Assembly: GCA_002706085.1 (NCBI GenBank)
Contig: PAJO01000035.1
Location: 1-64,000 of the forward strand
Origin: Alcanivoracaceae bacterium
GTDB lineage: Bacteria; Pseudomonadota; Gammaproteobacteria; Pseudomonadales; Alcanivoracaceae
DNA length: 64,000 nt
Direction of reading: 5' to 3'
In this document: positions 15,257-43,217 of the stretch, in pieces
Numbering within the stretch: position 1 is the first letter of the stretch
How the letters are laid out: every line of letters begins with the position of its first letter
The notes under the pieces: model-generated
Databases searched by the model: none
The model's input: only the letters and a program-made list of their open reading frames with translations
Told to the model about the DNA's origin: nothing
Program-made: the position numbers and the translations under genes

Positions 15257-15470
15257 TGGCGTACTGTAGCGACTTTCTCAAGGGGCGCCTAGAGCGTGTT
15301 GCGCGGCTTGCCCATGATCCATCATCCCGCCACGGCAATGTTTTTATACAATCTGGTCAGGCCATTTTCTTGCACGTTCACTGCATAATGCGTAAATCAG
15401 ACCCTGAATTTCCTGAAAATAGCTGATTTCATTGCCTGCGCCAGTGTTGGACGGGCTATCGGGAGGACCA

Positions 15471-16181
15471 GTGAGCGACCAACAAGACAAGATCCTCGTT
15501 GTAGATGACGATGCGCGCCTGCGCAGCCTGCTGCAACGGTTCCTTGAAGAAGCCGGTTATGCCGTCAAGGCGGTGGGCGATGCCGAACAAATGGATCGCG
15601 CCCTGTCCCGTGAAATCTATTCACTGATGGTACTGGATTTGATGTTGCCGGGCGAAGACGGCCTGTCGATTTGTCGACGCCTTCGGGAGGCGGAGAACGC
15701 CATGCCGATCATCATGCTCACCGCCAAGGGGGACGATGCCGAGCGTATCGAAGGGCTCGATGCGGGAGCGGACGATTATCTGCCCAAGCCATTCAATCCC
15801 CGTGAACTGGATGCCCGTATCCGCGCGGTACTGCGTCGGCATATCCGCGAAGTGCCGGGGGCGCCGAGCAAGGAAGAGGGGCGAGTGACCTTCGGCCCCT
15901 GGGAGCTGGATCTGGCTAACCGTACCCTGGCCCGGGAAGGGGATCCGCAGGGGCTGACCACCGGCGAATTCGCAGTGCTCAAGGCGCTGGTACAAAATCC
16001 CCGCGAACCACTGACCCGTGACAAGCTCATGAGTCTGGCTCGTGGTCGCGAATGGTCAGCCATGGAGCGCTCCATTGACGTCCAGGTATCCCGTTTGCGT
16101 CGCCTGTTGGAAGACGATCCTTCCAAGCCCCGTTATATCCAGACGGTGTGGGGTGTGGGCTATGTGTTTGTGCCGGATTAA
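15471..16181 (+). CDS. ompR: Response regulator OmpR
   Basis: A 236-residue regulator started at GTG 15471, preceded by SD GGGAGGA; upstream in-frame codons lack an SD. The receiver domain (about 5-120) has the DDD acidic pocket at 12-14, phospho-acceptor Asp56 in VLDLMLPGEDGLS and Lys in DYLPKPFNPREL. The winged-helix DNA-binding domain is at about 140-235 (LTTGEFAVLKALVQNPREPLTRDKLM, VSRLRRLLEDDP). Similarity to E. coli OmpR is strong through the receiver (AEQMDRALSRE). It probably forms an operon with envZ 94 bases downstream and responds to osmotic or envelope signals. Confidence 0.93.
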   Translation: MSDQQDKILVVDDDARLRSLLQRFLEEAGYAVKAVGDAEQMDRALSREIYSLMVLDLMLPGEDGLSICRRLREAENAMPIIMLTAKGDDAERIEGLDAGADDYLPKPFNPRELDARIRAVLRRHIREVPGAPSKEEGRVTFGPWELDLANRTLAREGDPQGLTTGEFAVLKALVQNPREPLTRDKLMSLARGREWSAMERSIDVQVSRLRRLLEDDPSKPRYIQTVWGVGYVFVPD

Positions 16182-16275: not shown

Positions 16276-17592
16276 ATGAAATTCTACCCCCGCACTGCCT
16301 TCGTCCGTTCTGCCATCGTGGTGGGTCTGGTGATCGGTATCAGTCAGGCGCTTACGTTGTGGTTCTTTGCCCGCAATGCCTACCTGCCCGGAATCCGTGA
16401 GTATGCCCGGCTCACGGTGCTGCAGGCAGAGCTGGCATTTAGCGCCGAGGGGCAGGATGACAATCGTCTGGCAGGGCGCCTGGCCAATGCCACCAGCATC
16501 GAAGTGGCACAACCGCAGAACCTGCATGAGGGAACCATGCTGCTGTCGCAGCCAGTGGTCAGTCGCTTTCGAGAAGAGTTGGAAGAGCGTCTCAACGAAA
16601 CGGTCACCGTCAGGTTGGAAGACAGTCGCCAGCCGGTATTGTGGGTCAGTGCCCCCTCGTTTGAAGGGCGCTGGCTACGGGTGCCGATGGAATTCTTCCG
16701 TGACTATGACCGCTATCTGTTACTGGGCTGGGGGGTGACCGTCCCGCTGCTGGCGATCATTGGTGGTTTGCTGATTGCGCGGGGGCTCAACCTGCCGCTA
16801 CGGCGTCTTGCCCGGGTTGCGCTGAAAGTAGGTCGGGGAGAAGCGGTGCCGGTGCTGGACACCAGCATCGGTCCGGAAGAAATCCAGACGGTGAATACGG
16901 CGTTCAACCGGATGACCAGCGATCTGCAACAGGCCCAGCGTGATCGTGCCCTGTTGCTCGCCGGGGTGTCACATGATCTGCGCACCCCGCTGACCCGTCT
17001 TCGCCTGTCGGCGGAATTCATGCAGGACGAAGAGCTGGCCAAAGGCATCATCGAAGACATCGAAGACATGGATGCCATCCTCGATCAGTTTATTTCCTTC
17101 ATTCGTGATGGTGCAGACGAGCAGCCGGATTTTGAAAATCTCAATGCATTGATCCACGAGGTGGCGGGGAAATACCCTGCCGAGCAAATTCGTTTTGCAC
17201 TGGCCGACCTGCCGAGGCTGATGCTGAAACGACTGACGGTAAAACGGATGTTGGCCAACCTGATCGGCAATGCGCTCAAGTACGGCGCCTCGCCGGTGGA
17301 TATTCGCACGGTAGTCAATGATAACGTGGTGGTGTTGTCAGTGCGGGATCACGGCAAAGGGGTCCGGGAGGAAGATATTCCCCTGCTGCTGCAGCCTTTC
17401 TCCCGTGGTGAAAAAGCCCGGACCTTGAGTGGCAGCGGTCTGGGCCTGGCGATCGTGAAACGGATCGTGGATATGCATCACGGCGAGATTCGTCTGGCGA
17501 ACCATGAGCATGGAGGTTTGTTGGTGGAAATTCGTTTTCCTGTCACCGGCAAATTTGTGCAACCGGTGCCGCTGTCGGCTGGTGTGCGTTAG
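16276..17592 (+). CDS. envZ: Sensor histidine kinase EnvZ
   Basis: A 438-residue inner-membrane kinase. TM1 at about 13-36, a periplasmic domain (about 37-150), TM2 at about 155-175, HAMP (about 175-228), DHp domain with phospho-acceptor His233 in [20 protein letters not shown], and a HATPase domain with N box ([13 protein letters not shown]) and G boxes ([31 protein letters not shown]). The periplasmic sensor is divergent. It phosphorylates and dephosphorylates the OmpR encoded upstream. Confidence 0.93.
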
Positions 17593-17837
17593 CTGCGGCA
17601 GGCGGTTACAAAAAACTGCATTTTGTGCGTGCCAGTGTGGACTGGTGCACAGTTTCAGGGCGCTGCGAGGCGCATGCTGTTTTACAAATTTTACGAGGAG
17701 GCAGGGACGCCGCCTCCTGGGTGTGCAGGCTGTCTGGCGGCATGCTACACCGGGTAATCGCTGACAATAAAAGTGATCAGGCCTAGCCGGGACACACCGG
17801 CAGGCCAAACAACAAAAGGAATTGGGAGAGCGCCATC

Positions 17838-17876
17838 ATGAAGACCCGTCTGTTGCCTGTGCGGCATTTTCATTAA
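17838..17876 (+). CDS. 12-residue leader-like peptide
   Basis: ATG at 17838 to TAA at 17876, encoding MKTRLLPVRHFH, with SD-like AAGGAATTGGGAGAG just upstream. Its basic, His-ending sequence recalls regulatory leader peptides, but it has no run of a single amino acid that would point to a particular biosynthetic attenuator. It sits inside the structured RNA described at 17780-18001. Translation is inferred from SD and context only. Confidence 0.5.
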   Translation: MKTRLLPVRHFH

Positions 17877-17971
17877 CGACCCATCGCTGACTTCTCAAGA
17901 GTGTGTGTCAATGGCACCACTGTGTTGAGATGCCGATAACCTGTTGCCAATGGACTTGGCGACAGGTCGTT

Positions 17972-18001
17972 GGGCCGCACTCCTCGTGCGGCCCTTTTTT
18001 T
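17972..18001 (+). terminator. Rho-independent terminator of the small RNA
   Basis: Stem GGGCCGCAC / GTGCGGCCC (17972-17980 and 17986-17994) with loop TCCTC and seven T residues. It could also stop the envZ transcript, although that gene ends about 380 bases upstream. Confidence 0.93.
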
Positions 18002-18022
18002 GGTCTGCCTGCTGGTGGGCTG

Positions 18023-19231
18023 TTACTCCACAAACCGGTTTTCTCCAGTAGGTATTGGGCTGTCTGCTGTTTCATGCTGTTCCAGCGCCCGGCCCGCGAG
18101 GAAAATCAGTAGCCCGCCAATGGCCAGCGCCGCTCCTACCAAGCCGGTGGTGGACCATTCTGCGCCACTCTTGATCGTGATGCCTGCCAGCCAGGCGCCC
18201 AAGGCGTTGGCCATGTTAAAGGCAGCATGATTCATGGACGCCGCCATGGTCTGTGCGTCTTCGGCCACATCCATCAATCGGGTTTGCAGGGCCGGCCCAA
18301 GCGCCATGCTGGTGCCGACCAGACCGACAAAGACGACCCCGGCCACCACATAGTCGGCCGCCATGAAGAAGCCCGCTTGTACCAGCGCACACCAGATCAG
18401 GATCAGCACAATGGCGCGCAACAGGTTGCCGTCGGCGGCGCGCGCCCCGGCAAAGTTACCCACGATGGTGCCAATGCCGAAGATCATCAGAACCAGCGGC
18501 CCCCAGCGTTCTGCCATGCCTGCCTGCTCGGTGAGGGTGGGCATGACATAGCTGAACACGGCAAACATGCCGCCGAAGCCGATACTGGCCACCCCCAGGG
18601 TGAAGAGCACCCGTTGCTTGACCAGGGCGGAGAGTTCTCTGGCCGGGCTGGCGTTGGGGTCCGGGGCCTGCCAGGGCACCCACAGCCACACCAGCAAGGC
18701 GGTTAGCAGCGCAATGATTCCCACGCCCAGGAAGGCCACTTCCCATCCGAAAAGGTTGCCGGCCCAGGTGGCCAGGGGAGCCCCAACCACAATAGCGATC
18801 GTCAATCCGCTCATGACGCGGGCGACCGCCCGGGCTCGCATGTGATAAGGGACGGCGGCCGCCGCGACGAGGGCGGCTACGCCGAAGTAGGCGCCGTGGG
18901 GCAGGCCGGCAAGAAATCGCAAAAAGACAAACGTCCAGAAATCCGAGGCCAGCGCGCTGGCCATGTTGCCTGCCGCAAATACCAGCATCAGCGAGATAAG
19001 TAGGGCGCGACGGGGCACGCGCGCGGCAAAAGCGGAAATCAGCGGGGCGCCCACGACTACGCCCAGCGCATAACTGCTGATGGCGTAGCCCACATCGGGC
19101 ACGGCCACCTGCAGGTCGGTGGCCACGCGGTTCATCAAACCCATGATGACAAACTCGCCGCTGCCAATGCCAAACCCGCCCAGAGCGAGAGCAAGAGACA
19201 GACGAAGCATCTGGCCTTTACCAAGGGTCAT
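18023..19231 (-). CDS. MFS transporter, AraJ/YdhP-like exporter
   Basis: A 402-residue major facilitator protein with about 12 hydrophobic segments. Start 19231 has a good SD (TTTGGAGATCTC); the longer frame from 19270 has none. Family marks are GSGEFVIMGLMNRVA in TM1 (the GxxEF motif of the DHA1 exporter group), the loop RVPRRALLI after TM2 and GLPHGAYFGVAALVA in TM4. The group includes AraJ, YdhP and chloramphenicol or sugar exporters; the substrate here is unknown. It is monocistronic. Confidence 0.88.
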   Translation of the reverse strand: MTLGKGQMLRLSLALALGGFGIGSGEFVIMGLMNRVATDLQVAVPDVGYAISSYALGVVVGAPLISAFAARVPRRALLISLMLVFAAGNMASALASDFWTFVFLRFLAGLPHGAYFGVAALVAAAAVPYHMRARAVARVMSGLTIAIVVGAPLATWAGNLFGWEVAFLGVGIIALLTALLVWLWVPWQAPDPNASPARELSALVKQRVLFTLGVASIGFGGMFAVFSYVMPTLTEQAGMAERWGPLVLMIFGIGTIVGNFAGARAADGNLLRAIVLILIWCALVQAGFFMAADYVVAGVVFVGLVGTSMALGPALQTRLMDVAEDAQTMAASMNHAAFNMANALGAWLAGITIKSGAEWSTTGLVGAALAIGGLLIFLAGRALEQHETADSPIPTGENRFVE

Positions 19232-40019: not shown

Positions 40020-40131
40020 CTGTTGGAGTTCAGGATAGAGGCTGATATCTCGCTCAACTCGTTATGAGTTGCCCTCAAGTTGGCGGCTTTTGATTGCCAA
40101 ATCCCCTCACCATTGGTAATTTCGCGCCACC

Positions 40132-40316
40132 TTTTCGGTGCCCGCCCTGAACACGGGATGGGGTAAACGGGAAGTCGGTGATGCCATCTGGTGGAATCCG
40201 ACGCTGCCCCCGCAACGGTGATTGAGTCAACGACAGTCGAAGTGCCACTGTGCATTATGCATGGGAAGGCGATTGTTGAGAGGTGTCCCCTCGCTCATCA
40301 GCCCGGAGACCGGCCG
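40132..40316 (+). promoter_or_regulatory. Cobalamin riboswitch
   Basis: Has the conserved marks of the AdoCbl-type element: TTTTCGGTGCCCG at the 5' end, AACGGGAAGTCGGTG (40166-40180), the B12 box region GCTGCCCCCGCAACGGTG (40203-40220), and the 3' CAGCCCGGAGACCGGCC (40299-40315). It lies 128 bases ahead of btuB and would shut off expression of the transport and corrin genes when cobalamin is plentiful. Confidence 0.95.
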
Positions 40317-40443
40317 AATTGGAACCAGGCGTTGCGGCGGGCGATGGCGGGGAATCATGGCGTGTCTATCGCCAACCCCATGTTGTGTCTGCCGCGGCTG
40401 AATTCAGGCCGTGCGGGTGGGCACGGCAGAGGGGATCACTTCC

Positions 40444-42276
40444 ATGACGTTTCGCTTTCTGGCTGCCGGTGCAGCTGTTTCCTTTTCCCTGTTGCCGCTG
40501 GCAGCACACTCTCAATCCTCGGATAGTCCGACCCGGGTTGCCATGCTGGATCCGGTGGTGGTCACGCCCACTCTCGCCAGCCGAACGGCCGACGCGTCGT
40601 TGTCTTCGGTGACCGTGGTCGATGAAAAGACGCTACGCGAGCAGCAGCCCACAGACATGGCTGACCTGCTGCGCGGGCAGCCTGGCGTGGATACCACGGG
40701 CAATGGTTCCTTTGGCAAGAATGCCAGCGTGTTCATTCGCGGGACCTCCAGTGATGCCACGTTGTTGCTGGTAGATGGGGTGCGTCTGCGCTCGGCGACC
40801 GCCGGGAGCCCGGCCTGGCAGTACCTGCCACCGCAAATGATGCAGCGGGTAGAAATTGTGCGCGGGCCGCGGGGGAGTCTCTACGGTGCGGATGCCGTGG
40901 GCGGTGTGGTGCAGATTTTTACCCGCGATGAAGGGACCTGGCTGAACATGGGCGGAGGCAGTTTCGACAGCTGGAATCTGGGCGCCGGCAGTTCTATCCG
41001 TCACGGTGGCACCACGGCCACCGTAGGCGCAAATTACTTTGATACCGATGGCACCGAGCTGCGAGAAAACAGTGACGACCGTGGTTATGACAATGCCTCC
41101 GGACTGCTCAAGCTCAGCCACCAGTTTGGCGACAAGGGTAGCGTAGGGGTGTTCGGTTTCCGTACCGAAGGCAATACCGAATACGAAGGCAGTACTCCGG
41201 AAGACCTGCGCGATATCGATTACATGCTGCAGGTGGCCGGGGTGAAAGGGGACCTGTGGCTGACCGACAGTTGGCAGGTCAAGGCCCTGATCAGCGAAGC
41301 GAAAGATGAAAGCGAAGATTTCGATGACGGTTTGAGCAATGGCATCTTCGATACCCGCACTCGTACCGCCAACCTGCAGACCGTTTTTGTGGCAGGTGAC
41401 CACCAGTTCATTGTGGGAGGCGAATACCAGGGTGACGAAATCACCAGCTCCAACGATTACGATGAAACCCGTCGTGACAACAAGGCAGTTTTCGGCCAGG
41501 CGCTGTTGAATTTCGGTGCGCTGGATCTTCAGGGTAGCCTGCGCCATGACGACAACGATGCGTTTGGCAGCAAGGTGACCGGTGCCGCGGCGGTGGGCTA
41601 CAAGCTGGATACCCATCACCGTCTCCGTGCCAGTTATGGCACCGCGTTCAAGGCGCCCACCTTCAACGACCTGTATTTCCCGGACTCGCCGCCGTTCTAC
41701 TACAGCAACCCGAACCTGAAACCGGAATCCTCCGAAACGGGGGAACTGGGTGTGCGCGGCCAGTACAGTGTGTGGTACTGGGATGCGGCGCTGTATCGCA
41801 CCAATATTGACGATCTGATCAGTTACGATGCCAGCCGCGGTTCGTCCTTCAATGTGGCCAAGGCTACTGTGGAAGGCGGCGAACTGGCCATGGGCCTGGA
41901 ATGGCAGCAGTGGCGGGCACGGCTGGCGTTTTCTGCGCTCAAGCCGGAAGACGAAGAGACGGGCAACATCATCGCCCGCCGCGCCCAGCGCATGGGTCGG
42001 GTGGATGTGGATCGCCAGATTGGCCAGTTTTCCCTGGGGGGGACCGCCAGCTTCCAGGGTCACCGCTATAACGATGCGGCCAACACCCAGCGTTTGTCCG
42101 GCTTCGGTCTGCTGGATCTGCGTGCGGGCTGGGAATTTGCCGAGCACTGGACCGGGCGCGTGGTCGTCGAGAACGTACTCGACAAGGAATATGCCACCGC
42201 CCAGAACTTCAGCGGATGGAACTATCTCAACGCCGGGCGTTCGGTAATGGTAAGTGTCAGCTACGATACCCCATAA
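40444..42276 (+). CDS. btuB: TonB-dependent vitamin B12 receptor BtuB
   Basis: A 610-residue outer-membrane receptor. Signal peptide MTFRFLAAGAAVSFSLLPLAAHS, TonB-box/plug entry (DPVVVTPTLASRTA, then DMADLLRGQPGVD, FIRGTSSDATLLLVDGVRL), and a 22-strand barrel ending in an aromatic strand. Family plug marks VEIVRGPRGSLYGADAVGGVVQ fit cobalamin receptors, and the riboswitch upstream supports it. Start 40444 chosen from the signal peptide. It probably leads the operon with btuF onward (53-base gap). Confidence 0.93.
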   Translation: MTFRFLAAGAAVSFSLLPLAAHSQSSDSPTRVAMLDPVVVTPTLASRTADASLSSVTVVDEKTLREQQPTDMADLLRGQPGVDTTGNGSFGKNASVFIRGTSSDATLLLVDGVRLRSATAGSPAWQYLPPQMMQRVEIVRGPRGSLYGADAVGGVVQIFTRDEGTWLNMGGGSFDSWNLGAGSSIRHGGTTATVGANYFDTDGTELRENSDDRGYDNASGLLKLSHQFGDKGSVGVFGFRTEGNTEYEGSTPEDLRDIDYMLQVAGVKGDLWLTDSWQVKALISEAKDESEDFDDGLSNGIFDTRTRTANLQTVFVAGDHQFIVGGEYQGDEITSSNDYDETRRDNKAVFGQALLNFGALDLQGSLRHDDNDAFGSKVTGAAAVGYKLDTHHRLRASYGTAFKAPTFNDLYFPDSPPFYYSNPNLKPESSETGELGVRGQYSVWYWDAALYRTNIDDLISYDASRGSSFNVAKATVEGGELAMGLEWQQWRARLAFSALKPEDEETGNIIARRAQRMGRVDVDRQIGQFSLGGTASFQGHRYNDAANTQRLSGFGLLDLRAGWEFAEHWTGRVVVENVLDKEYATAQNFSGWNYLNAGRSVMVSVSYDTP

Positions 42277-42329
42277 CGGACTGACCGGCGGAGACACCAT
42301 ACCTCTCCGCCTTTGACTGCAGGGTGATG

Positions 42330-43217
42330 ATGACGTTTCGCAGAACGATGTTGATTGGTTTGGTGATGCTGCTTGGCTTGCCGCTACCGGCGATAGCCCG
42401 GGTGTGTGTGCAGGACGATGCAAGCCAACGGGTCTGCCTGGAGCAGCCTGCGCGCCGAATCATCGCCCTGTCCCCCGGTGCCACCGAACTGCTGTTTGCC
42501 GCCGGGGCCGGGGAGCAACTGGCCGCCGCGGTGAGCTTCAGTGATTATCCGCCCGCGGCGAAGCAGTTGCCCCGGGTGGGGAGCTATCAGCGGCTGGATC
42601 TGGAAGCCATCGTGGCCCTCAAGCCGGACCTGATCGTGGCCTGGCGAAGTGGCAACCCCATGGCGGATGTGGCGCGACTTCAGGACATGGGATTCCCGGT
42701 CTACATCAGTGAGCCCCGGCAGTTCGAGGATGTGAGCGCCACGCTGGAACGGTTTGGAGTGCTGGCTGGCACTGAATCGGCCGCCCAGGGTGCGGCAAAC
42801 GGGTTTCGAGCCGGCATTGCCGCCCTGCGCGAGCGTTATGCTGATGCGGCTCCGGTGACGGTGTTCTATCAGGTCTGGGACGACCCACTGATGACAGTCA
42901 ACGACAGCCACCTGATCAGTGAAGCCATTCGTATCTGTGGCGGCGTCAATGTCTTCGGGGATCTGGACGCCCTGGCCCCGCGTATCAGTCGTGAGGCCGT
43001 GCTGGAAAAAAATCCCCAGGCCATCGTGGCGGGCGGAATGGGGGAAGATAACCCGGCCTGGCTGACTCCCTGGAAAGCCTTCCCGTCGATGCTGGCGGTG
43101 CAGAAAGGCAACCTCTTCTTTGTGGCTCCTTCCACCTTGCAGCGGCCCTCTCCGCAGATGCTGGCAGGCACCCGCACCCTGTGCCGTCACCTGGATAGCG
43201 CCCGTGCCCGGCACTAG
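42330..43217 (+). CDS. btuF: Cobalamin ABC transporter substrate-binding protein BtuF
   Basis: A 295-residue periplasmic binding protein with signal MTFRRTMLIGLVMLLGLPLPAIA. BtuF-like helical-backbone fold: RRIIALSPGATELLFAAGAG (about 34-53), VGSYQRLDLEAIVALKPDLIV (about 82-102) and the late NPQAIVAGG. GTG, ATG and ATG codons are stacked at 42324-42332; the third gives the best SD spacing. It delivers B12 to BtuCD. Its end overlaps the btuC start. Confidence 0.92.
   Translation: MTFRRTMLIGLVMLLGLPLPAIARVCVQDDASQRVCLEQPARRIIALSPGATELLFAAGAGEQLAAAVSFSDYPPAAKQLPRVGSYQRLDLEAIVALKPDLIVAWRSGNPMADVARLQDMGFPVYISEPRQFEDVSATLERFGVLAGTESAAQGAANGFRAGIAALRERYADAAPVTVFYQVWDDPLMTVNDSHLISEAIRICGGVNVFGDLDALAPRISREAVLEKNPQAIVAGGMGEDNPAWLTPWKAFPSMLAVQKGNLFFVAPSTLQRPSPQMLAGTRTLCRHLDSARARH

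Follow-up and report, generated by a model that had tools for sequence, protein, structure and literature searches.

The intergenic region behind the envZ-type kinase gene in 64,000 nucleotides of an Alcanivoracaceae contig (this whole stretch is hereafter called the window) is best explained, with a probability that we put at roughly 0.55, as the locus of a stand-alone, genus-specific regulatory RNA of Alcanivorax, which would be controlled by CRP/Vfr, would probably act by base-pairing with participation of Hfq and would carry a CsrA-type hairpin over its ribosome-binding site. The argument is carried by observed conservation and synteny, by the geometry of promoter and terminator sequences, by the lack of conservation in the encoded peptide and by persistence of the RNA after the loss of its neighbor. 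Five RNA elements, from a 5′ hairpin to an intrinsic terminator, had been placed by the preliminary description within positions 17780-18001, and all of them are present there (Table 1), the region folding more stably than any of 200 dinucleotide shuffles (z -4.7). As for the borders of the element, the 3′ end stood but the 5′ end did not, since a CRP-like dyad and a -10-like element predict a start at ~17685 and leave 17780-18001 as the 3′ two thirds of a ~320-nt RNA. For this full predicted RNA of the window the folding z-score is -4.9, with none of 100 shuffles as stable, and the values for three relatives are weaker or modest (-3.1, -1.5, and -1.3). The 3′ end of a convergent MFS gene lies 22 nt past the T run, and the Shine-Dalgarno-like GGGAG of the window stands nine nt ahead of the ATG of the short ORF.

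Table 1. Features of the RNA locus and of ompR-envZ, in window coordinates; members are the genomes carrying the RNA.
Feature	Position	Strand	Remarks
ompR	15432-16181	+	Upstream gene of the osmosensor pair ompR-envZ; NCBIfam OmpR equivalog, 419.8 bits (cut-off 331)
envZ-type kinase gene	16276-17592	+	Best NCBIfam model EnvZ, 350.9 bits, under the cut-off of 415; directly 5′ of the RNA, conserved neighbor
CRP/Vfr-type dyad TGTGGACTGGTGCACA	17636-17651	+	Predicted activator site matching the consensus at 8 of 10 positions
-10-like element CATGCT (family GCGCATTCT)	17673-17678	+	All 15 members have a GYGCATNYT-like element
Predicted RNA	~17685-18001	+	~320 nt; start predicted ~7 nt past the -10-like element
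5′ hairpin	17780-17806	+	Absent as a family feature; interval missing in G011
A-rich AAACAACAAAA	17807-17817	+	Contains AACAACAA (17808-17817), starting 10 nt 5′ of GGA; possible Hfq contact
Box hairpin CAA-AAGGAA-UUG	17813-17824	+	ANGGAN hexaloop of CsrA/RsmA type; putative CsrA site
Shine-Dalgarno-like GGGAG	17824-17828	+	Present in 15 of 15 members
12-codon ORF, ATG-TAA (MKTRLLPVRHFH)	17838-17876	+	Start retained in the family, peptide not
Conserved segment TCGCTGACTTC (family CGCTGATTCC)	17884-17894	+	Pairing with the box possible
Conserved segment GTGTTGAGATGCCGATA (family GTGTTGTGAATGCCGATA)	17922-17938	+	Candidate pairing seed
Hairpin H2	17939-17967	+	Upper stem changes yet stays paired
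Intrinsic terminator	17972-17994, T7 17995-18001	+	GC-rich 9-bp stem

BLAST of positions 17750-18020 against 57 genomes revealed the RNA in 15 of 17 Alcanivorax genomes (it is absent from G016 and G005) and in none of 40 outside the genus. In all 15 members it follows envZ in the same orientation, and they have in common the box GGA[C/A]TTGGGAGAG, an ATG, and, in the 3′ part, a conserved segment with a hairpin and an intrinsic terminator. The initial idea of a structured, probably independently transcribed RNA with the start site of a short ORF and a terminator of its own is supported by these relatives. When the 3′ part was searched as a covariance model, each member gave one strong copy at E < 1e-15; the members match this model by construction, and it is informative in that the copy is single and strong matches elsewhere are absent, namely from G005, G016, 29 further genomes within the family, and the rest of 145 genomes of the order. 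Among weak matches of this model (R1) outside the 15 members, the five that were read (L033 of G005, L036, L037, L128, and L130) turned out to be ordinary-looking terminator hairpins. At the envZ 3′ end of G005, G016, and 18 genomes that represent other genera within the family, twenty stretches of ~2 kb were free of the box, and a GCGCATTCT-like element was absent from the first 500 nt of each. A pattern scan of wider genome contigs returned 25 stretches, 10 from Alcanivorax, one from a Pseudomonadales MAG, and 14 pattern matches from other taxa ranging from other Pseudomonadota to archaea. Two extra BLAST rows (L016 and L017, in G000 and G015) were set aside as 24-nt matches inside a gene resembling, by eye, that of a mechanosensitive channel, and further copies of the box at two places in the 17 genomes (in G009 with no mismatch, in G015 with one) were by eye taken for coding sequence.

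No Rfam family exceeded its gathering threshold over the RNA, the best score in Rfam 15, which fell on H2 and the terminator, being 22.7 bits for suhB/mmgR (threshold 41). Membership in a known Rfam family and homology outside the genus were thus both rejected on the Rfam search and on the BLAST and covariance-model searches, respectively. The only family recognized in the window scan was an ordinary cobalamin riboswitch (RF00174, 105 bits) at 40119-40332, which is followed by a TonB-receptor-like ORF (40411-42276, BtuB-like by eye) and then by an ORF that is BtuF-like by eye (42324-43217). Our literature search named no RNA beside envZ of Alcanivorax among the matches listed. Small RNAs of A. 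dieselolei are mapped in PMC9788540, the main text of which mentions neither envZ nor ompR. On the ompR-envZ tree, where the root is arbitrary, G015 groups with the genome of the window while its RNA resembles that of clade A, which suggests a possible exchange of the RNA segment between lineages.

A scan of 17400-18300 for the sigma-70 consensus revealed no promoter; no -35 was found, and the -10-like element that follows the dyad is poor. All 15 members possess upstream of the RNA a dyad similar to TGTGN-N6-NCACA with 6-10 of 10 matches: it is perfect in G015 (TGTGATGCTTTTCACA), reaches 8-10 in the six members of clade A and 8 in the window, and is weak (6-7) in eight members, seven having 7 matches and the worst, G007, having 6; the chance of at least 8 matches per site in random sequence of the same composition is 4e-4. 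Within the interval from envZ to the box the dyad is the sole best-scoring site in 13 of 15 members and is tied in G007 (6) and G008 (9). In class II CRP promoters the dyad is centered near -41.5. The dyad described here has its center 29 nt (13 members) or 30 nt (two members) before the CATTCT-like -10-like element, and this spacing, with the start assumed 7 nt further downstream, sets it at about -41 to -42, i.e., in the class II geometry. An orthologue of CRP/Vfr is encoded in the genome of the window (367 bits with the NCBIfam CRP equivalog against a cut-off of 266, best PDB match Vfr), and a Crp-family match is found in 17 of 17 genomes of the genus. In promoter geometry and in the presence of the regulator the RNA would thus fit the class II CRP-activated type, activation as such being predicted from the arrangement of sites. 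Since the distance from the -10-like element to the box, counted from the start of the motif, varies from 37 nt (G011) to 225 nt, the 5′ part including the 5′ hairpin is no feature of the family.

The statement that no plus-strand gene follows the RNA is true of the window's genome and three others but not of the remaining 11 of 15 members, in which a gene for a small outer-membrane beta-barrel protein lies downstream on the same strand (the protein of G004 belongs to PF13505, OMP_b-brl). This neighborhood and the combination of a start site with a terminator, which is anatomy of leader type, speak for an attenuator of the outer-membrane protein (OMP) gene, where translation of the short ORF or binding of CsrA would decide between termination and read-through and the window would represent a remnant left by gene loss. 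Nevertheless, the RNA is intact in all four genomes devoid of the gene (G000, G002, G008, and G011, the genome of the window among them), for which whole-genome search found only distant paralogues with 29-36% identity; the distance from the terminator to the OMP start ranges from ~80 to ~1,220 nt over divergent sequence; no alternative antiterminator structure came from RNAalifold; and G005 possesses the OMP gene without the RNA. The four genomes stand apart on the ompR-envZ tree, each with a gene-bearing member close by, so that four losses make the simplest account. The intact state of the RNA where the gene is missing, along with the variable and divergent gap, favors a stand-alone RNA. 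Attenuation was therefore rejected as the main function, a regulated gene being missing in four of 15 members, and we consider it a doubtful explanation of the locus; the earlier conclusion that this is not a standard attenuator holds, on this other ground. G016 has neither the RNA nor a neighboring OMP gene. In G005 the leader between envZ and the OMP gene (L050 / L113) contains CAAGGACACAGGGAGTTTCTGCCATG, in which GGA, GGGAG, and ATG are spaced nearly as in the box of the RNA, and the RNA and an OMP leader may have a common origin. Transposase genes lie just past the terminator in G015 (L003, IS30-type by eye), where the OMP gene sits behind the transposase gene, and in G008 (L007, IS110-type by eye), the RNA being intact in both.

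The translation start of the short ORF is among the constant parts of the family: the ATG is located 6 nt past the box in 14 members and 7 nt past it in the window, with a spacer of varying sequence. It was the retention of the start codon and of its Shine-Dalgarno spacing in all 15 members, as well as the uniform length of 21 codons in the six members of clade A and the stretch PRIASPP common to four of them, that made a dual-function RNA or a small-protein gene with a functional 12-residue peptide worth considering. The products themselves behave otherwise. ORF lengths are 11, 11, 12, 13, 19, 19, 19, 21 (in six members), 23, and 34 codons, and the peptides are unrelated between clades, in disagreement with what is expected of a conserved small protein. 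Of the 20 columns available for each codon position within clade A, 9, 11, and 8 vary at positions 1, 2, and 3, and every one of the 15 pairs shows more nonsynonymous than synonymous changes (7-21 vs 0-2), codons with more than one change being counted as nonsynonymous. A functional peptide was rejected because of these unrelated sequences and lengths and the lack of synonymous excess, and it appears very improbable; the dual-function RNA of the preliminary description is in this respect not supported. It seems to be the RNA rather than the peptide that evolution preserves, and since the start and its spacing are retained without the peptide, selection is likely to act on ribosome binding or on translation as such instead of on the translated product.

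Close to the start codon the sequence reads CAA-ANGGAN-UUG (CGA in G011; N is A, T or C across the family), allowing in 15 of 15 members a hairpin of ANGGAN type that, judged by sequence, overlaps or adjoins the Shine-Dalgarno element. ANGGAN hexaloops are found in RsmE ligands, and stems of at most 4 pairs in most CsrA SELEX ligands (PMC7652899); the loop and the stem of at most 4 pairs in the box hairpin match both. All 17 genomes of the genus encode CsrA. This distribution of protein and hairpin, together with a second AUGGAC in H2 of the window, might point to a sponge comparable to RsmY/RsmZ/CsrB that titrates CsrA, which we nonetheless hold to be quite improbable. ANGGA occurs once in 13 members and twice in two, close to the expected 0.55-1.12 per RNA, and the total of GGA is 2-6 per RNA instead of the many that a sponge presents, nine and six GGA motifs being given in PMC9788540 for CsrR1 and CsrR2 of a relative. 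As ANGGA is not enriched, the CsrA idea rests on the position and the conservation of the hairpin.

Next to the Shine-Dalgarno sequence the preliminary description had recognized an A-rich AAnAAnAA motif and related it to Hfq/Crc. Within 70 nt 5′ of the box this motif is present in nine of 15 members and missing in six, at no fixed position; shuffles of the same stretches give on average 5.0 members with the motif, and 6 of 200 shuffled sets reach nine, a statistic that is soft because the members are related. Adjacency to the Shine-Dalgarno box is restricted to the window and G012, the motif lying mostly further off in other members, and the literal AACAACAA is found in two of 15. At most two overlapping motifs per RNA occur in the 70-nt stretch scanned. 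For runs of ARN triplets, no more than 6 of 300 shuffles equal the RNA in seven members, and 29-280 of 300 do so in the other eight. A GC-rich terminator hairpin with a U tail of at least 6, as is characteristic of Hfq-dependent sRNAs, is possessed by all 15 members, and because all 17 genomes encode Hfq, its contact with the RNA is plausible. The Crc part of the idea was set aside, since Alcanivorax is stated to have no Crc homologue (PMC9788540); the A-rich motif itself was not rejected.

In the 3′ part, the terminator stem is paired at 99.3% across the 15 members. The CGCTGATTCC segment is able to pair with the box, each pair being possible in 14-15 of 15 members. Compensatory changes in the stems of relatives, on which the first description had made its RNA depend, were detected in part: RNAalifold on the whole alignment gave 0 of 28 pairs with a compensatory change, and in the plain MAFFT alignment of the 3′ part covariation did not clearly exceed that of shuffles (two-sided change in 4 pairs vs 2.6 in shuffles, 104 of 500; 38 of 500 for the covariation score), but some paired changes were seen in H2. 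When this hairpin was arranged by its own arms, the variable upper stem retained 20 of 20 pairs over five hairpin types, the top four pairs being CG/TA (p9), CG/TA/GC (p10), AT/GC (p11), and AT/TG/CG (p12). Such pairing was reached by 2 of 120 arm permutations with the true one included, which is the floor, as two hairpin types share one arm; the arrangement was made by hand, five near-identical clade B hairpins were counted as one type and the six of clade A, with a one-base bulge, were left out. We take the paired changes in H2 as moderate support.

A plainer explanation would be a mere promoter-terminator cassette or the tail of the envZ transcript, in either case with no regulatory function of its own. 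It agrees with the promoter-like element and the terminator being among the best conserved parts and with the outcome of target searches: pairing of the RNA with the OMP start regions of 11 genomes was no better than chance (z from -2.3 to +1.4), and no convincing conserved target of the conserved segment was found in the 17 genomes. It leaves unaccounted the box with its ATG and the segment of 17-18 nt before H2, which are nearly as conserved as the terminator, a terminator alone needing neither, and we regard it as unlikely. In nine of 17 genomes (L114-L122) the conserved segment GTTGTGAATGCCGATARCC is antisense, with at most 3 mismatches, to a coding sequence that by eye is typA/bipA-like (GQVIGIHSRGND); this match was not seen in the genome of the window and falls in a strongly conserved stretch of the protein.

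The favored reading, that of a stand-alone RNA, implies the following order of events. cAMP-CRP of Vfr type would bind the dyad at about -41.5 and activate the promoter behind envZ, from which RNA polymerase would make an RNA of ~200-400 nt, the length being set by the variable 5′ part, and stop at the intrinsic terminator. The 3′ part, comprising the conserved segment, H2, and the terminator with its U tail, may then pair in trans, probably with Hfq, whereas the 5′ box would serve as an RNA-binding platform, an ANGGAN hairpin over the ribosome-binding site of the short ORF, at which CsrA and the 30S subunit could compete. A more daring proposal, to which we give a low probability, is that the RNA retains a translation start irrespective of any product: CRP/Vfr would make the RNA, and the winner between 30S and CsrA at the box would set the fold, the lifetime or the seed exposure of the 3′ part, the peptide being irrelevant. 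If so, the RNA would read the translation/CsrA state of the cell. In case the stand-alone reading is true, the marine oil degraders Alcanivorax, lacking a Crc homologue according to PMC9788540, would possess a small RNA linked to CRP/Vfr. The locus also provides a natural test of why a ribosome-binding site and a start codon are kept while the peptide drifts freely, and the four genomes without the OMP gene separate the RNA from its neighborhood without experiment.

RNAs of CrcZ type are Hfq/Crc decoys of pseudomonads. They are resembled by the Alcanivorax RNA in the AAnAAnAA upstream of the box in nine of 15 members, but the number of overlapping motifs, at most two in the stretch scanned, and the reported lack of Crc (PMC9788540) set it apart. 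With the CsrA-bound leaders considered in PMC7652899 it shares a hairpin of ANGGAN type overlapping the ribosome-binding site, deduced here from sequence, and differs from them in having no long ORF behind, a terminator within ~200 nt and a second GGA a few nt away. Within the same bacterial group, PMC9788540 describes CsrR1, with nine GGA motifs of which five are unpaired and four partly paired, and CsrR2, a CsrA-related sRNA conserved in Alcanivorax, located by a ferredoxin gene and carrying six unpaired GGA; GGA motifs are common to CsrR2 and the RNA studied here, which in contrast is placed beside envZ and contains one or two ANGGA. CRP is known to activate CyaR and to repress Spot 42 and AzuCR (PMC8672173), and CyaR, according to a title in the reference list of the same paper, is CRP-dependent and acts on the outer-membrane protein OmpX. 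Like these, the Alcanivorax RNA is short and has a CRP-type site at its promoter; unlike them, it resides behind ompR-envZ, is confined to one genus and belongs to no Rfam family at the gathering threshold. A parallel in composition, a CRP site in the promoter and a short ORF inside a regulatory RNA, is offered by VcdRP of Vibrio cholerae, a dual-function RNA repressed by CRP, whose VcdP ORF is conserved throughout the species tested for it (PMC8672173), whereas in Alcanivorax the peptide is not conserved and the position of the site fits activation.
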